64,000 nucleotides of DNA, taken from the NCBI GenBank assembly GCA_961205875.1, contig OY540815.1, positions 16,119,638-16,183,637 on the forward strand, in the 5' to 3' direction. The DNA comes from Sialis fuliginosa. Taxonomy: Eukaryota; Arthropoda; Insecta; Megaloptera; Sialidae. Positions 25,915-58,379 of the stretch are shown piece by piece. Below the pieces are notes generated by a model, which saw nothing but the letters and a program-made list of their open reading frames with translations, was not told the origin of the DNA and did not search any database. Within the stretch, counting starts at the first letter, position 1; every line of letters starts with the position of its first letter. The position numbers were made by a program, and so were the translations under genes.

Positions 25915-26164
25915 ACACACTATATTTTATGAAAATTCTGTTAATTAATGACAATGGAGTAACTTACGATAGATCTACTTTAGACATAATGACAAACCAT
26001 TGTTTTATTTAGTTTTAAACTTATTATTACATTAGAATAATTATGTTTGATTATTACGATTGGTTTGTAAAATTTTTCGGGGGAGAGTGTTTTAGGGAGA
26101 AAAACAACCCCCTATCTCGTATTTTTTATAATGAATAAAAAAACAAAAACAAATGATTTAATTA
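25915..26164. other. AT-rich spacer
   Basis: Nothing recognisable between the hAT element and the Penelope-like unit. Confidence 0.5.
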
Positions 26165-26207
26165 TATACACTTTTTATTATTGGGTTTTATTCCGCGTTG
26201 TACTTTA

Positions 26208-26256
26208 ATATCACTTAACGTTTCGACCAACATCTCGTGGTCTTCATCAGAATTGA
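26208..26256 (-). ncRNA. Hammerhead-ribozyme-like motif, type B, left copy
   Basis: On the minus strand the order is CTGATGA (26244-26250), a stem II GACC…GGTC around an ACGAGATGTT loop, GAAA (26221-26224), a short ACGT palindrome, then AAGTG. The CUGANGA and GAAA core boxes are both intact and stem II has four Watson-Crick pairs, with one extra A before it. Stem I is imperfect here because a transposon begins two bases beyond (26258). Confidence 0.5.
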
Positions 26257-26257
26257 G

Positions 26258-26934
26258 CAGTGGCGAAGCGTCCAAGCAGGGGAAGCAGTGCTTCCTTTAC
26301 TTCTGTGTAATATTATAATATATATTATTAGAATATTCATCTTTATGCGCAAAACTAACAATCAAAAATAGCATTTAATATTAATTTACACGTTCAATTA
26401 TAAAACTATAATACTTCTGCGTCTTATGTTCTTGTATTTTAGTCAAAATCTATATAATTACATGTATAATACCTTAAAACTCGAAAAAAAAATTTTCGCG
26501 AAAAATCGAAAAAATTCAAAGGGGTATACCTTAAAAAAATGTCGATTTTTGACCAAATTTTTTTTGTCGGATTTTAAAGTATTATACATGTCATTATATA
26601 GATTTTGACACGCTGATTTCAAATCCGTCAACTAAAATCAATTCCGACCACGCGTTCAAAAGTTATGGCCTTTTTTCTCCAAAAATTTGAAAAAACTAAA
26701 ACTTTGAGAGGCTATATCTCGAGAACGGTTTGAGATACAGATCAATAAACATACTTTTAACGAAATCAAAAATTCGAAATAGTGAAATTTCCTACAGTGA
26801 ACTTCAACTCGTCATACAAATATCGACTAAAATACAAGAAAACAAGACGTAGAATCATTAAGTTACTATATAAATAAATATATAAGAATTTATTTAAAAA
26901 AGTAAAAGCTTGAACTTAAGATGTTTCATCACTA
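26258..26934. mobile_element. Palindromic (foldback) transposon, copy B, one arm mostly lost
   Basis: It starts CAGTGGCGAAGCGTCC and ends GATGTTTCATCACTAG. The end is the inverse of the start, the differences being mostly C-to-T or G-to-A changes. The interior matches 47012-48041 except that most of the left palindrome arm is missing: the join is near 26443, where CTTGTATTTT runs straight into AGTCAAAATCTATATAA. It sits inside the Penelope-like remnant. Confidence 0.8.
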
Positions 26935-27156
26935 GTTTTTTGTTAATAGGAGGGGGAGGATAGACAATATATGCTTGATGATCTCAATGGTTTCTCTGTA
27001 GAGTCCAAGCCAAAATTTATCGGAGCGGACTAAGACTTCGACATCGTTGGTGTCTACTATATAGCTTTGTAGCATCGACACTGCGGTGTGCTGGTTCTTT
27101 ATATCTCTCATGTGTTCGTTTGTTTTTTTAACACAAACATATTCTAGCAACATCAA
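26932..27156 (-). pseudogene. Penelope-like GIY-YIG endonuclease C-terminal fragment
   Basis: A 74-codon minus-strand reading contains KNQHTAVSMLQSYI, then NDVEVLVRSDKFW and YRETIEIIKH. The order H-T-A-V, a hydrophobic V-E-V-L strand, and a final E-T-I-E-I helix is that of the C-terminal end of Penelope GIY-YIG domains, where a conserved histidine/alanine block precedes a region such as NVEIL and a helix. The upstream catalytic part and the reverse transcriptase are not seen. It lies between two inverted hammerhead-bearing ends, which supports the assignment. Recognition is by pattern only. Confidence 0.5.
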
Positions 27157-27191
27157 CGCTTATTTAAGCAGCTATACCTTCTGAACTCAAC

Positions 27192-27243
27192 ATTTCACTT
27201 CTGAAGAAGACCACGAGATGTTTGTCGAAACGTCAAATGAAAT
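27192..27243 (+). ncRNA. Hammerhead-ribozyme-like motif, type B, right copy
   Basis: Plus strand: stem I strand ATTTCACTT (27192-27200), core CTGAAGA (27201-27207), stem II GAC…GTC around an ACGAGATG-containing loop, GAAA (27227-27230), CGTC (27231-27234), then stem I partner AAATGAAAT (27235-27243). Stem I pairs over eight of nine positions, and the last bases of the CGTC block form the canonical GUC cleavage triplet. Stem III is only the ACGT palindrome, as in minimal dimer-acting hammerheads. One extra A precedes stem II. Confidence 0.55.
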
Positions 27244-27418
27244 TAAAGTACAACGCAGAATAAAACCCAATAATGAACAGTTTATACAATTGAACAACCG
27301 TGAAAGTCTACGTTCAAAAATAATTTAATATTTCATCATTTGGCTGCCAACATGAAGAAATTATACAACGCGAGCGCACGCACGGGAAGGTCCGCTGGGT
27401 CACTACATTTGTACTTAC

Positions 27419-40844: not shown

Positions 40845-43800
40845 ATGAAGATGAAAGTTATAGCTATTAGTTATATAACTTTTTTAATTGTTGTGTTTAT
40901 TAAGAAAGTGAAGATGTTTGAATTAACGGATATTCAATTGTTGAAAGATTTTATTGACTCCGAAGCGAAAGTTTCAATTATTTATTGTTTTATTTGTTGG
41001 AATCAATATAGTAATGGTGATATAGTTTCACTTTATCTTAAACTGTTTAAAATATATATTTAAATTTCAGGAATTCCTACAGCGTTAATAAAAGCGCTAT
41101 CCAAAGATAATAATTTTAGAATAAGCCTTATAAATCTTGACAAAAATGCTGACTGGAAATATAATTTTAACCCGGACTTTATTAATTTATATGTACTAGA
41201 TTTAGAATGTTCTAATTCATTTTCATTTATTAGAAATGTAAGTGTACAAAATACTCTCGTATATACCTATGTATATAAATATAATTAACACATAATTCTA
41301 AATAATAATCATTTTAGATGGATATAAATGAAATGTTTCGATTCCCAAATCGCTGGCTTTTGATAAACAAAGATGCATCTTTAGACATCGTAAATTATTT
41401 TCAACCGTTCAACTTCCTTATTGACAATGATATTATTATAGCAACAAAAAACGAAGATGGTTATATGTTGCATGAGATTTTTAAAAGACGCCAAAATCAA
41501 GGACTTGTATTACAAGATTATAAATTCTGGAACCGGACAACTGGTTTCAAAGTTTTTGGAGAAACAAATGTTGTTGCAGTAAGGAGAAGAGATTTAAAAA
41601 AAACTGTAATTAATATTGCAGTAGTTGTAACATACAATGCAACCTATGGGCTTTTGGACAGCTACAAGTAAAGTATTTAATAATTTACTACTAATACCTA
41701 CTGTTTAAACTTTAACCACACTGAATTAAACATTCCAAATATTTTAAGCCTAAAATGTTTTCATTATACATAAAGTATCTACAGATCTATATATAAATGC
41801 ATTTATTTTATTTGGTTCATATTTTTATCTACATATATTTGAATATTTAATATTTACAGAGATCGTCAATTTGATACAATAAACAGGATGAATTATATGG
41901 TTTTAAAAAACGTTTTGGAGGGTATGAACTCTCAAAAAAACATCACATTCCTAAACAACTGGGGCTTCTTCAACCCCTTAACTGGAAAATACAACGGGAT
42001 GATGGGACTTCTTCAGGACGATAAAATAGAAATAGGAGGTTATACATATGTTACCATTATTCTAAGGCTTACACCATTAACTTTAAGAGTATCAAGTGCC
42101 TTAAGACCGTCGCGACTCCTTTCCCCTATTATAAACAAATTAAAATTGATAAATTAACAAATAAGTTGAATAGTTAATATCGTCAGCTTAGCACGATCCT
42201 AGAGACTCAAACTTTTTTTATAAAATATAGCTTACATTCTAAAACATTCAACGGGGGCACTTGATCAGAATTACGAGTCAAACTCGGTCGTTTGTTTTAT
42301 TTCTTCACTAATTTAATGTGAATGAAAATCAAGTATTTGCCTTTACTTTTTTAGCATTATTAATAAAAGCTAGTGTTATTAGTAAAAGCGTCTACTTTTA
42401 GCTAGAATTGGAGTGAAGAAACGTTCGCTAATGCTACCTCATAATTACTGACAAAACTCTAATTAAAAAAACTTGTACTAATACCTTTATTAGTCTCAAG
42501 TCTCTAATTGTGCATATTAGAAATATACCTATCATGCAATTGCTAGCAATACTGATTAAAAACTTATTATTAAGAGAATTTCGCATTTGTTTTTATTCTT
42601 CCGTTAGTTACTTCACTGTTTTGTTCAAAAGAATGTGTAACATTTAACTATTTCATTTGAAGTTATATTTTCGTACAGGTACGCCACTATTCCCAGAACC
42701 TAGCCGTCTCTCTATTTTGACTTTCGTGGCGTCTCCAGCTAGAACTCGTGGAGCTTTCGTTTTCCGGAAACCACCACTGTCGTACGTACAGGATCTCTTC
42801 GCACTTCCGTTCAGCCAGGGAGTTTGGATCCTCACCATTGTAGCGCTAGTGCTTGCAGGCGTAGCTCTCTATGTTGCCGTGCTGTGGGAATGGAAGATCA
42901 TACCGGAGGTAGTGATTAACTAACTATTAAATTTGTGACTAATTTTTACCTCTTGTTATAATATTGGCAAATGTTTTATTTTTATATAGGACGATTCTAT
43001 GATAATAGGACGCCTTCGGCCGAATGAAGTCAGTTTAGCAGCTCTAGGTGCGTTGTGTCAACAAGGCACACCTACTGAACCTCGTGGGAATGCTGGACGA
43101 ACTGCTCTTCTTACAATAACAATCGTACTTATGGCGTTGTATGTCTCATACTCGGCTAATGTTGTTGCATTGCTCCAATCTTCTTCAGACAGCATCCAAA
43201 CTCTTACCGATCTGCTTAACTCGCGTTTGACGCTAGCTAGTGTCGATACTATTTTTATACGGTATTATTTTGAGGTGAGATGAATCATAAACCCTCCATT
43301 TTTATTAAGAGCAAAATCAAAAATAATCAAAAAATCTAAAAAACCGATTTAGTGATGCTTTTCAAAAATAGAAAGCGCACTTCTACTGTAAACAAAAACA
43401 TAAATTTTAAAATTTCATGTTCGTTAGTAAATGATTTTGCTTTAGAGCGACACATACTCAATTCAGAGAATAATTCTGAGGATATTCAAGTTCGAATTTT
43501 ATTTTCATAATTAATTTATTATACTTTTCGAAAGTTTGACTTGTTGTAGTTCAACTATATGTACATATATGTGTCTATAATATCGCATATAAGAACGTGA
43601 ATATTATAAATTTGTCTATTTGTTAACACATAATTGTCAAAATACATTTTCAATGTAAGTTAATATTTGCACAACAAGTTCTAAAAGACATAAAGTCAAA
43701 TCTTCACTACTTACCGTATAAAAATTATTCTAATTGCAAAATAACACCTGTTGTTCTCTAAATAATCGGTTAAACAACTGAAACCTATTTTTAAATTCTT

Positions 43801-55827: not shown

Positions 55828-58379
55828 ATGAAGACTACGTTAGCCGTAATTGTCCTGGTGACAATTTGTGGCTTGGCAAAAGCTGCACTGAATGAACGTT
55901 TTGCCTGGAAAGAATTAGACTTTTCTTGGCCTTCAGAAGAAATAAAGAAATCTGCTTTAGATAGTGGAGCTTACAAACCAGAACATAATCTACCCTTAGG
56001 AGTAGCACGCCATAAGAACAGACTCTTTATTACCGTGCCCAGGTAAATCTATCGACCGTATTTACGTACAGGTACAACCTCACCTCCCTTAAAAACTATT
56101 TACATTTTTTTTTAAGATGGAAATCTGGAGTTGCCGCAACTTTAGTAACCGTTGAATTGAATAATGCAACCAAATCTCCTATTGTTCACCCTTATCCATC
56201 ATGGGAAGCAAATCATTTACCAAAAGAAGATGAAAAAATCGATGCTAATTCAAATAAAATTGTTTCTACTTTCCGTACAAGTGTTGATGCAGCTTGCGGT
56301 AGATTGTGGCTTGTAGATACTGGATATGCTGATATTTTGGGAGATGGAAAAAGCTATTACCCACCAACTTTGCTTATATTTGATCTGAATACTGATAAAT
56401 TATTGAAACGGTACATTTTCAAAAAGGAAGATCTCAAAGAAAATACGTTCTTTGCTAATATAGTAAGCAAACAAATTCAAAATATCAAACGACCTCGCAG
56501 AATCCTTATGGGAAACGGTTTTTTTTTAACTTTAGATTCTGGTAGTTCTTGATGACCAGATCAAAAGTCTCAATGGGCACTAAGTCCTAAAAACTCGTTT
56601 TTTTTTTTCTGAAGTTGGGAATCATGCTTGTCTTTAATTTACAATAAAAGTTTTTGTAGAACTTTTATTTTCACGTAACTGTTTGTAAAAAGCTGTTTTG
56701 AAAAATTATTTATCTACTGGTGAAAACCGCACTAACGGTTAATTTTAGTACGGTTTTCACCAACAAATAAATAATTTTTCAGATTAGGTTCTTTGCTATT
56801 TTTATTTTTTTGTTTTTTATTTTGCTTTTTCAATTCTTTGATTCGCCAAAGCATTGAACAGTTGACTTTTTTATGGTTCCAATCGATTATATAAATGGAG
56901 GTTGTAAGGAATTTTATAGCGAACAACTTTTATTCTAAATCTTTTTTGTATAATACCGTTATTTAGTAAAAATAAGAAAATGTGAAGAATTTTTAATTGA
57001 ACCATGATTTTAACCACGAACGCATGAAAAGCCTTTCAGATGGCTATATATCTTAAGACCATGATTTTTTAGGACATTGATTTGCTCATCAAGGACTATC
57101 AGAATCCAAAGTTTCAAAGAGTTTGACAGAGACCCATTTCCCATAAAGATTCTACAGGGTATTTTATAACTGTTAACTTATTTGACCAAAATTAACTTTT
57201 CTAACAATCATTTTAGGTTGTAGATTCTTCAGCTGATAAATGCGATGACGCTTTTGCTTACATACCAGATTTAGGAGGATATGGTATTGTTGTATACAGT
57301 CTGGCTAAAGACGATTCTTGGCGGGTAAAACACAACTACTTCTATTTCGATCCACTTTCCGGTGATTATAATGTTGGAGGTGTTAATTTCCAATGGACTG
57401 ATGGTGTTTTTGGACTTGCATTATCAGGATATAAACCCAATGGGTAAGTTCTTTTAATATTCAATTCAAATTGTCTCCACTACAGTTTATTTTATTCTTA
57501 GATTCCGTGATCTGTACTTCCACGCGTTATCGAGTACAAAAGAGTTTTCAGTTTGTACGGGAATTTTAAGAAACAAAACTTTAGCTACTGATCCTTCATC
57601 ATACCATAAATTTAAAGTAAGTTTGTAGTTGTAAAATAATTGCCTGTTGTGACTTATAAAACTTTATTTTTTTGTAGTTTGTTGGTGACAAAGGAGAAAA
57701 ATCTCAAGCATCTGCTAGTTTCTTGGATGTCAAATCTGGAATTCTGTTCTACACTCAAGTAAATCGTGATGCCATTGCTTGTTGGAATATCAACAAACCA
57801 TTCACTCAAGAGAACATAGGAATTGTTGCTCAAGATTCAGAGAAACTTGTTTTCCCCAACGATTTAAAGGTATGTACAGGGTTCCCCAGTATTACTGATG
57901 TCAACTTTTAGATTCTCTTAAAATTAGTTCTCGTGAGTTTTTCTATATATTTTGTACGGTGTGTGTGTTCAAATTGTACGTTATTAGATTGTTAAACTGA
58001 AATAGGTGGTATATTTATGTGAACTTTTTTTAGTTTCAATAATAGAATAAAATTATAAGCTTATTTCAGTTCATTTGAGCATTCGTATTAAGTAAATTTA
58101 TGACACATTAACAAAGTACTTTTCAGTGTATTTCTTATCTTATAATCATTTGTAAGTGCTCAATTAAAGAACAAATTTAAGATCAAAAAAAATTTTAAAA
58201 TTTAAAATTTAATACATATTTTTTTTATTTTACAGGTTGATGATGAAGGCATGTTATGGGTGTTATCTGATCGTATGCCTGTATTTATCTACAAAACTTT
58301 AAACCCTGAAGAATACAACTACAGAATACTCCAAGCAACTGTAAGCGAAGCTGTAGCTGGTACAGTTTGTGCACCTTGA
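55828..58379 (+). CDS. Yellow/major royal jelly protein family, secreted, 6 coding exons
   Basis: Coding exons: 55828-56042, 56117-56462, 57217-57443, 57502-57616, 57678-57869 and 58236-58379, in consistent phase, giving 412 residues, a usual length for the family. Residues 1-19 (MKTTLAVIVLVTICGLAKA) are a signal peptide. The MRJP/yellow signature is clear: GVARHKNRLFITVPRWKSGV (around 58-77), the cysteine-containing VDAACGRLWLVDTG (128-141), then KCDDAFAYIPDLGGYGIVVY and GVFGLALSG, and a closing MLWVLSDRMPVFIYKTL. The fold is a six-bladed propeller. Members act in cuticle pigmentation, melanin chemistry, eggshell or royal jelly; the sequence alone does not give the subgroup. NAT at 88-90 is a possible N-glycosylation site. 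The ATG follows a TTACAG splice acceptor. The gene converges with NDUFB7. Confidence 0.93.
56693..56783. repeat. Short hairpin in yellow intron
   Basis: GAAAAATTATTTATCTACTG and GTGAAAACCG on the left mirror CGGTTTTCACC and AATAAATAATTTTTC on the right. Arms are about 35 bp and the loop about 15 bp. A related GGTGAAAACCACATTAAAAT lies at 19620, so the arms may derive from a dispersed repeat. Confidence 0.7.

Follow-up and report, generated by a model that had tools for sequence, protein, structure and literature searches.

The window insertion

How does a Penelope-like retroelement come to lie in a genome as two inverted, hammerhead-bearing arms that face outward, and why does only one of them end in a tail? 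The question is raised by positions 26160-27320 of the window, the whole 64,000-nucleotide stretch of Sialis fuliginosa contig OY540815.1 that was analyzed, which hold a decayed Penelope-like insertion with two such arms. The window is AT-rich, and no tandem repeats were found in it at a score of 150. Inverted-repeat comparison within the window paired 26157-26256 with 27195-27294 (100 nt, 88% complementary), which bears out an earlier note on this DNA that described two inverted hammerhead-bearing ends of ~85 bp.

The left arm (26160-26256, minus strand), delimited by this inverted repeat, its end motif and its junction, is the 3' arm of the minus-strand half of the insertion; it stops at a "short" site and has no tail. 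The same half contains an endonuclease remnant (26971-27129, minus strand). The right arm (27127-27320, plus strand) is longer when set against other copies, being common to them from about 27127 and running to about 27320; it is inverted with respect to the endonuclease remnant, the junction between the two is abrupt (about 27127-27130), and this plus-strand half reaches a "long" site. Comparison of arm ends defines a tail (27292-27320, plus strand) present at the long end only. The candidate target-site duplication consists of AAATGATTTAAT on the left (26151-26162) and its partner AAATAATTTAAT on the right (27318-27329), both read on the plus strand; it is degenerate (score 9, one mismatch) and overlaps arm bases.

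The earlier note had taken 26165-27290 as one element, and a Penelope-like insertion is indeed present, but over half of the interval belongs to a very abundant, unrelated palindromic repeat at about 26258-26929, recognized by genome search and by its internal inverted repeats. This repeat begins with CAGTGGCG, and a first look at the genome gave 3227 candidates, of which 40 were scored. Since it sits inside the element, it was presumably inserted later and lies outside the Penelope element proper, so the endonuclease piece is confined to 26971-27129. The repeat also gives matches to miRNA-precursor models in Rfam at low E, far below their cut-offs. The window element itself is an ordinary fossil, old and broken, of a retroelement type already known. 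Elsewhere in the window, short frames at 41318-41671 and 56157-56552 match Ionotropic receptor 75a N-terminal (E = 4.2e-8) and Major royal jelly protein (E = 1.1e-16), respectively, and are probably exons of insect genes.

The endonuclease remnant and its Penelope relatives

The minus-strand peptide between the arms, previously described as GIY-YIG-like, derives from the C-terminal part of a Penelope-type endonuclease (residues 11-63 of a 75-aa frame), but the GIY-YIG motif is missing from it. With the C-terminal endonuclease of its best relative, L010, it shares 65% identity over 57 aligned positions. Genome searches returned 22 other matches at E ≤ 0.001 and 57 at E ≤ 10 counting the peptide itself, the better ones spanning residues 11-63 or nearly so. 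The earlier note had proposed a comparison with GIY-YIG and Penelope profiles: Pfam (E ≤ 10) did not recognize an endonuclease in the window peptide, whereas Penelope-type frames in the genome match residues 11-63. The sole Pfam match, to INCENP_N (E = 0.14), was rejected. Contig C14 carries eight of the 57 peptide matches, each at ~40% identity and of a second family (below); it is perhaps a chromosome rich in that family.

The open frame of L010 (303 aa) gave no Pfam match; it contains RYVDDTFVIW, which we take to be the Penelope reverse transcriptase (RT) catalytic motif, together with GIYEISC..VYI in one frame, and ends in the stretch kept by the window. Against solved structures its best match had an E of 0.034, to dynamin-like chains, and was taken as chance. 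A second-family frame, L088, which is cut at the edge of the stretch, matches Pfam GIY-YIG (PF01541; E = 0.00078) at 20.1 bits, below the curated cut-off of 22.6, and is 56% identical to L010 over 99 residues. The link between a GIY-YIG endonuclease and a Penelope RT is therefore found through relatives, not in the window peptide. The arms repeatedly flank Penelope-type frames in the genome, and the sequence similarity of the window element to Penelope elements is clear, so the view that motif and endonuclease remnant belong to a real element has held up.

The arms are ends of the pseudo-LTR (pLTR) type: they start immediately behind the endonuclease, span the hammerhead and reach about codon 34 of a frame beginning MLVET. 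Among the 76 loci read, the 303-aa frame of L010 was the longest, compared with an ORF of about 800 aa for a full-length element; scoring of 150 of the 442 N-terminal candidates gave open frames of at most 152 aa, and one endonuclease match in the genome lies within a frame of 511 aa.

End classes of the arm pairs

The genome searched comprises 392 Mb in 20 contigs. The string GACCACGAGATGTTNGTCGAAACGT has 269 genome matches at ≤1 mismatch, and its reversed control has none. After removal of duplicates we read 76 loci, namely the window, 17 from the peptide search, 38 from the arm search (its best scorers, the query being free of tail) and 20 taken in list order from the string matches; L021 (= L043) and L027 (= L016) were dropped as duplicates before counting. 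Arm pairs are present at 49 of the 76 loci, the window included, and all 49 face outward, while 27 loci have no pair in the stretch read. Three other adjacencies were seen, which we read as an extra fragment (L015) and as arms split by later insertions (L020 and L028, the only two on the same strand). At one unpaired locus with a short end, L050, positions alone place a tail on the opposite strand ~5 kb away, with the peptide matching weakly (E = 0.04) in the interval; some apparent singles may therefore be long elements that continue beyond the stretch read to their second end.

Well-kept arms stop at one of two sharp points, the short end at ..GTTTATACAATT (window 27291) or the long end at ..ACGTTCAAAAA (window 27320), the latter extending ~30 nt beyond the former by the tail. 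Of 44 callable pairs, 22 are long-short, 21 short-long, one short-short (L047) and none long-long. One long and one short end thus occur together in 43/44, whereas shuffled labels gave a mean of 22.2 and a maximum of 35, with 0 of 100,000 shuffles reaching 43. Five of the 49 pairs (L028, L046, L064, L069 and L071) could not be called, one arm being cut short, and the ends of L070, L080 and L085 were called by hand from their junctions. The rule holds without the three hand calls (40/41), under stricter definitions (37/38) and with the tail motif alone taken as long (36/37). In the list-order sample of 20 loci, 16 are paired and all 14 callable pairs obey it, or 11/11 without the hand calls, all three of which fall here. 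In 19 of 38 pairs (five ties dropped) the tail belongs to the arm that extends further inward; it is not tied to the longer arm, and the first- and second-primed strands are therefore indistinguishable.

Target duplications reach a score of at least 9 in 29 of the 49 pairs, against 1.7 expected from mispaired flanks, and fall below 9 in the other 20; the stretches compared include six arm bases per side, in the control too. The clear ones are about 8-10 bp long as judged by eye (L014, L018, L024, L070 and L082), and these duplications mark many arm pairs as single insertions. Where the arms meet closely (18 joints), they never begin at the same inner position; the offset ranges from 4 to 136 nt, and short overlaps (1, 5, 5, 8 and 11 nt) occur at five of these joints. 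Tails of this family have 301 genome matches at ≤2 mismatches and, by eye, none of the 100 listed lies within 30 kb of another.

A second family

The related second family was sampled with an arm-plus-tail query. Among 40 scored of 692 candidates there were 22 outward pairs and 18 loci with one arm only. In all 22 pairs one end lies at query 153-156 and the other at 119-130; no long-long pair was found among them, although the query would have caught such pairs, and because it favors long arms, short-short pairs would be missed. The tails have 405 genome matches at ≤3 mismatches, none of the 100 listed lying within 30 kb of another as judged by eye. Long arms begin at query 19-27 in 22/22 pairs, and short arms at 22-35 in 14/22. 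This common inner start may mark where a single-unit RNA begins (its 5' end) or where joining is preferred. Next to it, and immediately ahead of the hammerhead, stands a short inverted repeat, TTCAGAA..TTCTGAA (L091, from about 341). A second-family arm fragment was also seen inside a first-family insertion (L028, 1231-1272), with a second-family tail close by (C8:382736).

Hammerhead motifs in the arms

The pattern CTGANGAN{4,30}GAAACGT occurs exactly twice in the 64 kb, at 26218-26250 (minus strand) and 27201-27233 (plus strand), where 0.02 matches are expected and 0 of 100 shuffles gave two; the motifs are homologous and therefore amount to one independent event. Direct reading of both ends confirmed the CUGANGA box, short stem II, GAAA box and tiny palindromic stem III reported earlier, and the core CUGANGA...GAAA with an NUH cleavage site is present in both copies. 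In the right motif (27192-27243, plus strand) the core starts at 27201 and reads CTGAAGA, an extra A, stem II GAC/GTC, GAAA, ACGT and a GTC that ends at 27234; as previously described, GUC stands at the cleavage point and stem I (27192-27200 with 27235-27243) pairs at 8/9 positions, the failing pair being C27198/A27237. The left motif (26217-26250, minus strand), located by pattern match and direct reading, runs from CTGATGA to GAAACGTT, with stem II GACC/GGTC and the cleavage triplet GUU (GTT, not GTC). Both window copies are probably fossils as ribozymes.

An ATG in loop II (27218-27220, plus strand) is likely to be the start of the Penelope ORF, the frame MLVET... being conserved in 150 scored matches, and the motif overlaps this coding start. 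Could the hammerhead-like string be only N-terminal coding sequence, conserved for the protein and not as a ribozyme? Several results lean that way besides the overlap. Rfam hammerhead models gave no match at gathering thresholds over the window and none at E ≤ 10 over 26000-27400, so that the matches predicted in the earlier note at 26208-26256 and 27192-27243 did not appear, perhaps because the models need a stem III that is absent from the minimal form. Single-strand folding of four sequences never returned the hammerhead as the minimum-energy fold (z-scores −0.08 to −1.39). Within the family, covariation is not significant: in 81 distinct arm rows 94.2% of cells are paired as observed and 94.2% after shuffling, with double changes at one pair (3 cells). 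The pairing is no higher than in shuffles because the stems hardly vary. Of the two supports on which the earlier note had staked the element, covariance in homologous copies and Penelope similarity, the former is thus lacking within the family while the latter is clear.

Against a purely coding role stands the retention of the core in most decayed copies: among 100 extracted arms, CTGANGA is found in 80, GAAACGTC in 81 and GAAACGT followed by C or T in 87. In the 81 distinct rows the whole structure pairs in 94.2% of cells (stem I 92.6%, stem II 95.1%), compared with 10.8 to 41.3% after sliding the partners. The alignment holds 96 of the 100 extracted arms; L019+, L028- and L031- were left out as rearranged cuts, and L078-, a decayed copy (one row) that would add a few broken pairs, was left out without good reason. 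Between the two families there is one double change: the commonest second-family hammerhead, CTGAAGAAGACTCCGACATGAGAGTCGAAACGTCAA (first 100 listed of 476 matches to a pattern that covers both families; control 0), alters both sides of one stem II pair, with GACU/AGUC for GACC/GGUC, and keeps ACGU as stem III. The place of the motif also agrees with published Penelope hammerheads, which the earlier note located in the terminal repeats; minimal type I hammerheads without helix III are established in Penelope pseudo-LTRs (PMC7761336, PMC11167929). Conservation for coding alone is, on this evidence, improbable.

Stem III of the motif is ACGU without a loop, and a monomer should therefore cleave weakly or not at all and need a second motif or the Penelope protein; a requirement of this kind has been reported for related elements (PMC7761336, PMC11167929). 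In an inverted pair the two hammerhead motifs lie on opposite strands.

A model for the inverted arms

We consider it probable that the window copy is a decayed insertion from the 3' part of a Penelope element in which both target strands served as primers and two RNA start sites were used once each. The element endonuclease would make a staggered cut, after which the 3' ends of both target strands would serve as reverse-transcription primers on Penelope RNA. Of two neighboring start sites inside that RNA, one strand would use the upstream one, which yields the short end, and the other the downstream one, which yields the long end with its tail. Joining of the two antisense cDNAs in the middle would then leave a 5'-truncated body between outward arms whose inner lengths differ. 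Priming by both 3' ends would account for outward arms, RNA start sites at both flanks and a variable middle joint, as seen, and the occurrence of one long and one short end in nearly every callable pair suggests that the two sites are each used once per insertion. The offsets and overlaps at the joints fit microhomology or end joining, and a fold-back loop could give the same.

In vitro work by Frangieh et al. (2024, PMC11167929) provides a precedent: with the protein of a lizard Penelope element, both target strands were cut and extended, and copying began at two neighboring internal positions that delimit the tail. The in vitro experiments described there gave no start-site difference between top and bottom strands (PMC11167929), so the two-site reading fits only if the choice is exclusive per insertion and random between strands. 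Hammerhead mutants left insertion in that system unchanged (PMC11167929), and the ribozyme therefore has no demonstrated role in insertion. We counted against the two-site mechanism the short-short pair L047, the 20 of 49 pairs below duplication score 9, the lack of a tie between tail and longer arm and the 27 of 76 loci without a pair.

More tentatively, although as a serious possibility, we suggest a Penelope RNP with two start slots ~30 nt apart, of which each target 3' end takes one and the two hardly ever take the same. If this is true, a two-slot reaction explains inverted pLTRs, the optional tail and target duplications in one step; with a single-unit RNA, both cDNAs would run off the 5' end and produce the short arm-only pairs that fill the genome.

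Alternatively, each target strand might prime on an RNA of its own, the two molecules differing in how their 3' ends were processed, instead of both strands using two slots of a single template. Paired arms are not clearly each other's nearest relatives, which speaks for this version: identity within pairs averages 0.923 compared with 0.882 to other loci, and the two arms ranked each other first in 3 of 24. Arm identity as such does not discriminate between one and two template RNAs. Independent RNAs, however, predict about half like-like pairs, where 1/44 was seen, and an extra rule would be needed to pair a long RNA with a short one; we think this version unlikely.

A further alternative is self-priming, in which one strand is primed and the cDNA or antisense template folds back and is copied to give inverted arms, as has been suggested for rotifer Penelope elements whose inverted junctions bear palindromes (PMC3846280). 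The short overlaps at 5/18 close joints speak for it, and the differing arm starts at 18/18 joints are obtainable from a fold-back loop. A copied-back arm, however, should stop like the first or run into the flank, whereas 43/44 pairs combine a long with a short end, and target duplications lie outside the arms. We rate self-priming as quite unlikely in this family. Two independent, truncated insertions might also have come to lie side by side in opposite orientation by chance; Penelope copies are abundant and often truncated, and the window copy has a degenerate target duplication. For the family this is refuted by the single orientation of 49/49 pairs, their complementary end classes and the shared target duplications that frame many of them; for the window copy alone the refutation rests on the family.

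Comparison with known systems

The Sialis family shares with the Anolis Poseidon element PAc, one of the Penelope/Poseidon-clade elements with a GIY-YIG endonuclease, a C-terminal endonuclease, a hammerhead over the ORF start, AT-rich targets and the end signature of a tail between two reverse-transcription start sites (PMC11167929). The Sialis family is nevertheless another, insect-like family, apart from PAc. PAc is described as forming tandem arrays, whereas 49/76 Sialis loci are outward inverted pairs, and the ATG lies in loop II in Sialis but at the start of stem II in PAc; the account of PAc that we consulted does not appear to state a one-long-one-short rule (PMC11167929).

The Pen families of Adineta vaga are alike in their inverted pLTRs, in a 31-bp tail optionally present on one of them and in duplications of 8-10 bp where present (PMC3846280). 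Their authors favor self-priming, whereas the Sialis counts in two families fit both-strand priming better. Inverted pLTRs and short 3' extensions are also mentioned elsewhere (PMC8969392). Inverted arms and an optional tail on one are therefore already in print, and what is new here is the count and the two-site mechanism. In our literature search we recognized no paper stating a strict one-long-one-short rule and none linking inverted pLTRs to both-strand priming, and we claim absence from print for neither.

The Sialis motif resembles the minimal type I hammerheads of Penelope-like elements (Cervera and de la Pena 2014 and Lunse et al. 2017, via PMC7761336) in its core and in a stem III reduced to closing pairs. 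Between core and stem II it has an extra A, perhaps a difference from the published forms, and the window copies are decayed, the left having GUU and the right having lost one pair each in stems I and II. Animal non-LTR retrozymes likewise carry hammerheads in small non-autonomous elements, but as direct tandem repeats that give circular RNAs, whereas the Sialis arms are inverted pairs, some with a remnant of the Penelope body (PMC7229834). A retrozyme, in which hammerhead units measuring a few hundred bp follow one another as direct tandem repeats, does not fit here: all 49 arm pairs are inverted, and the two same-strand adjacencies read as split arms.

The family thus offers a countable handle on how the inverted ends and optional tail of Penelope elements arise. 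The long/short rule (43/44) weighs against simple self-priming, which predicts like ends, and any genome that contains young Penelope copies, like the lizard in vitro assay already published, would allow it to be checked.
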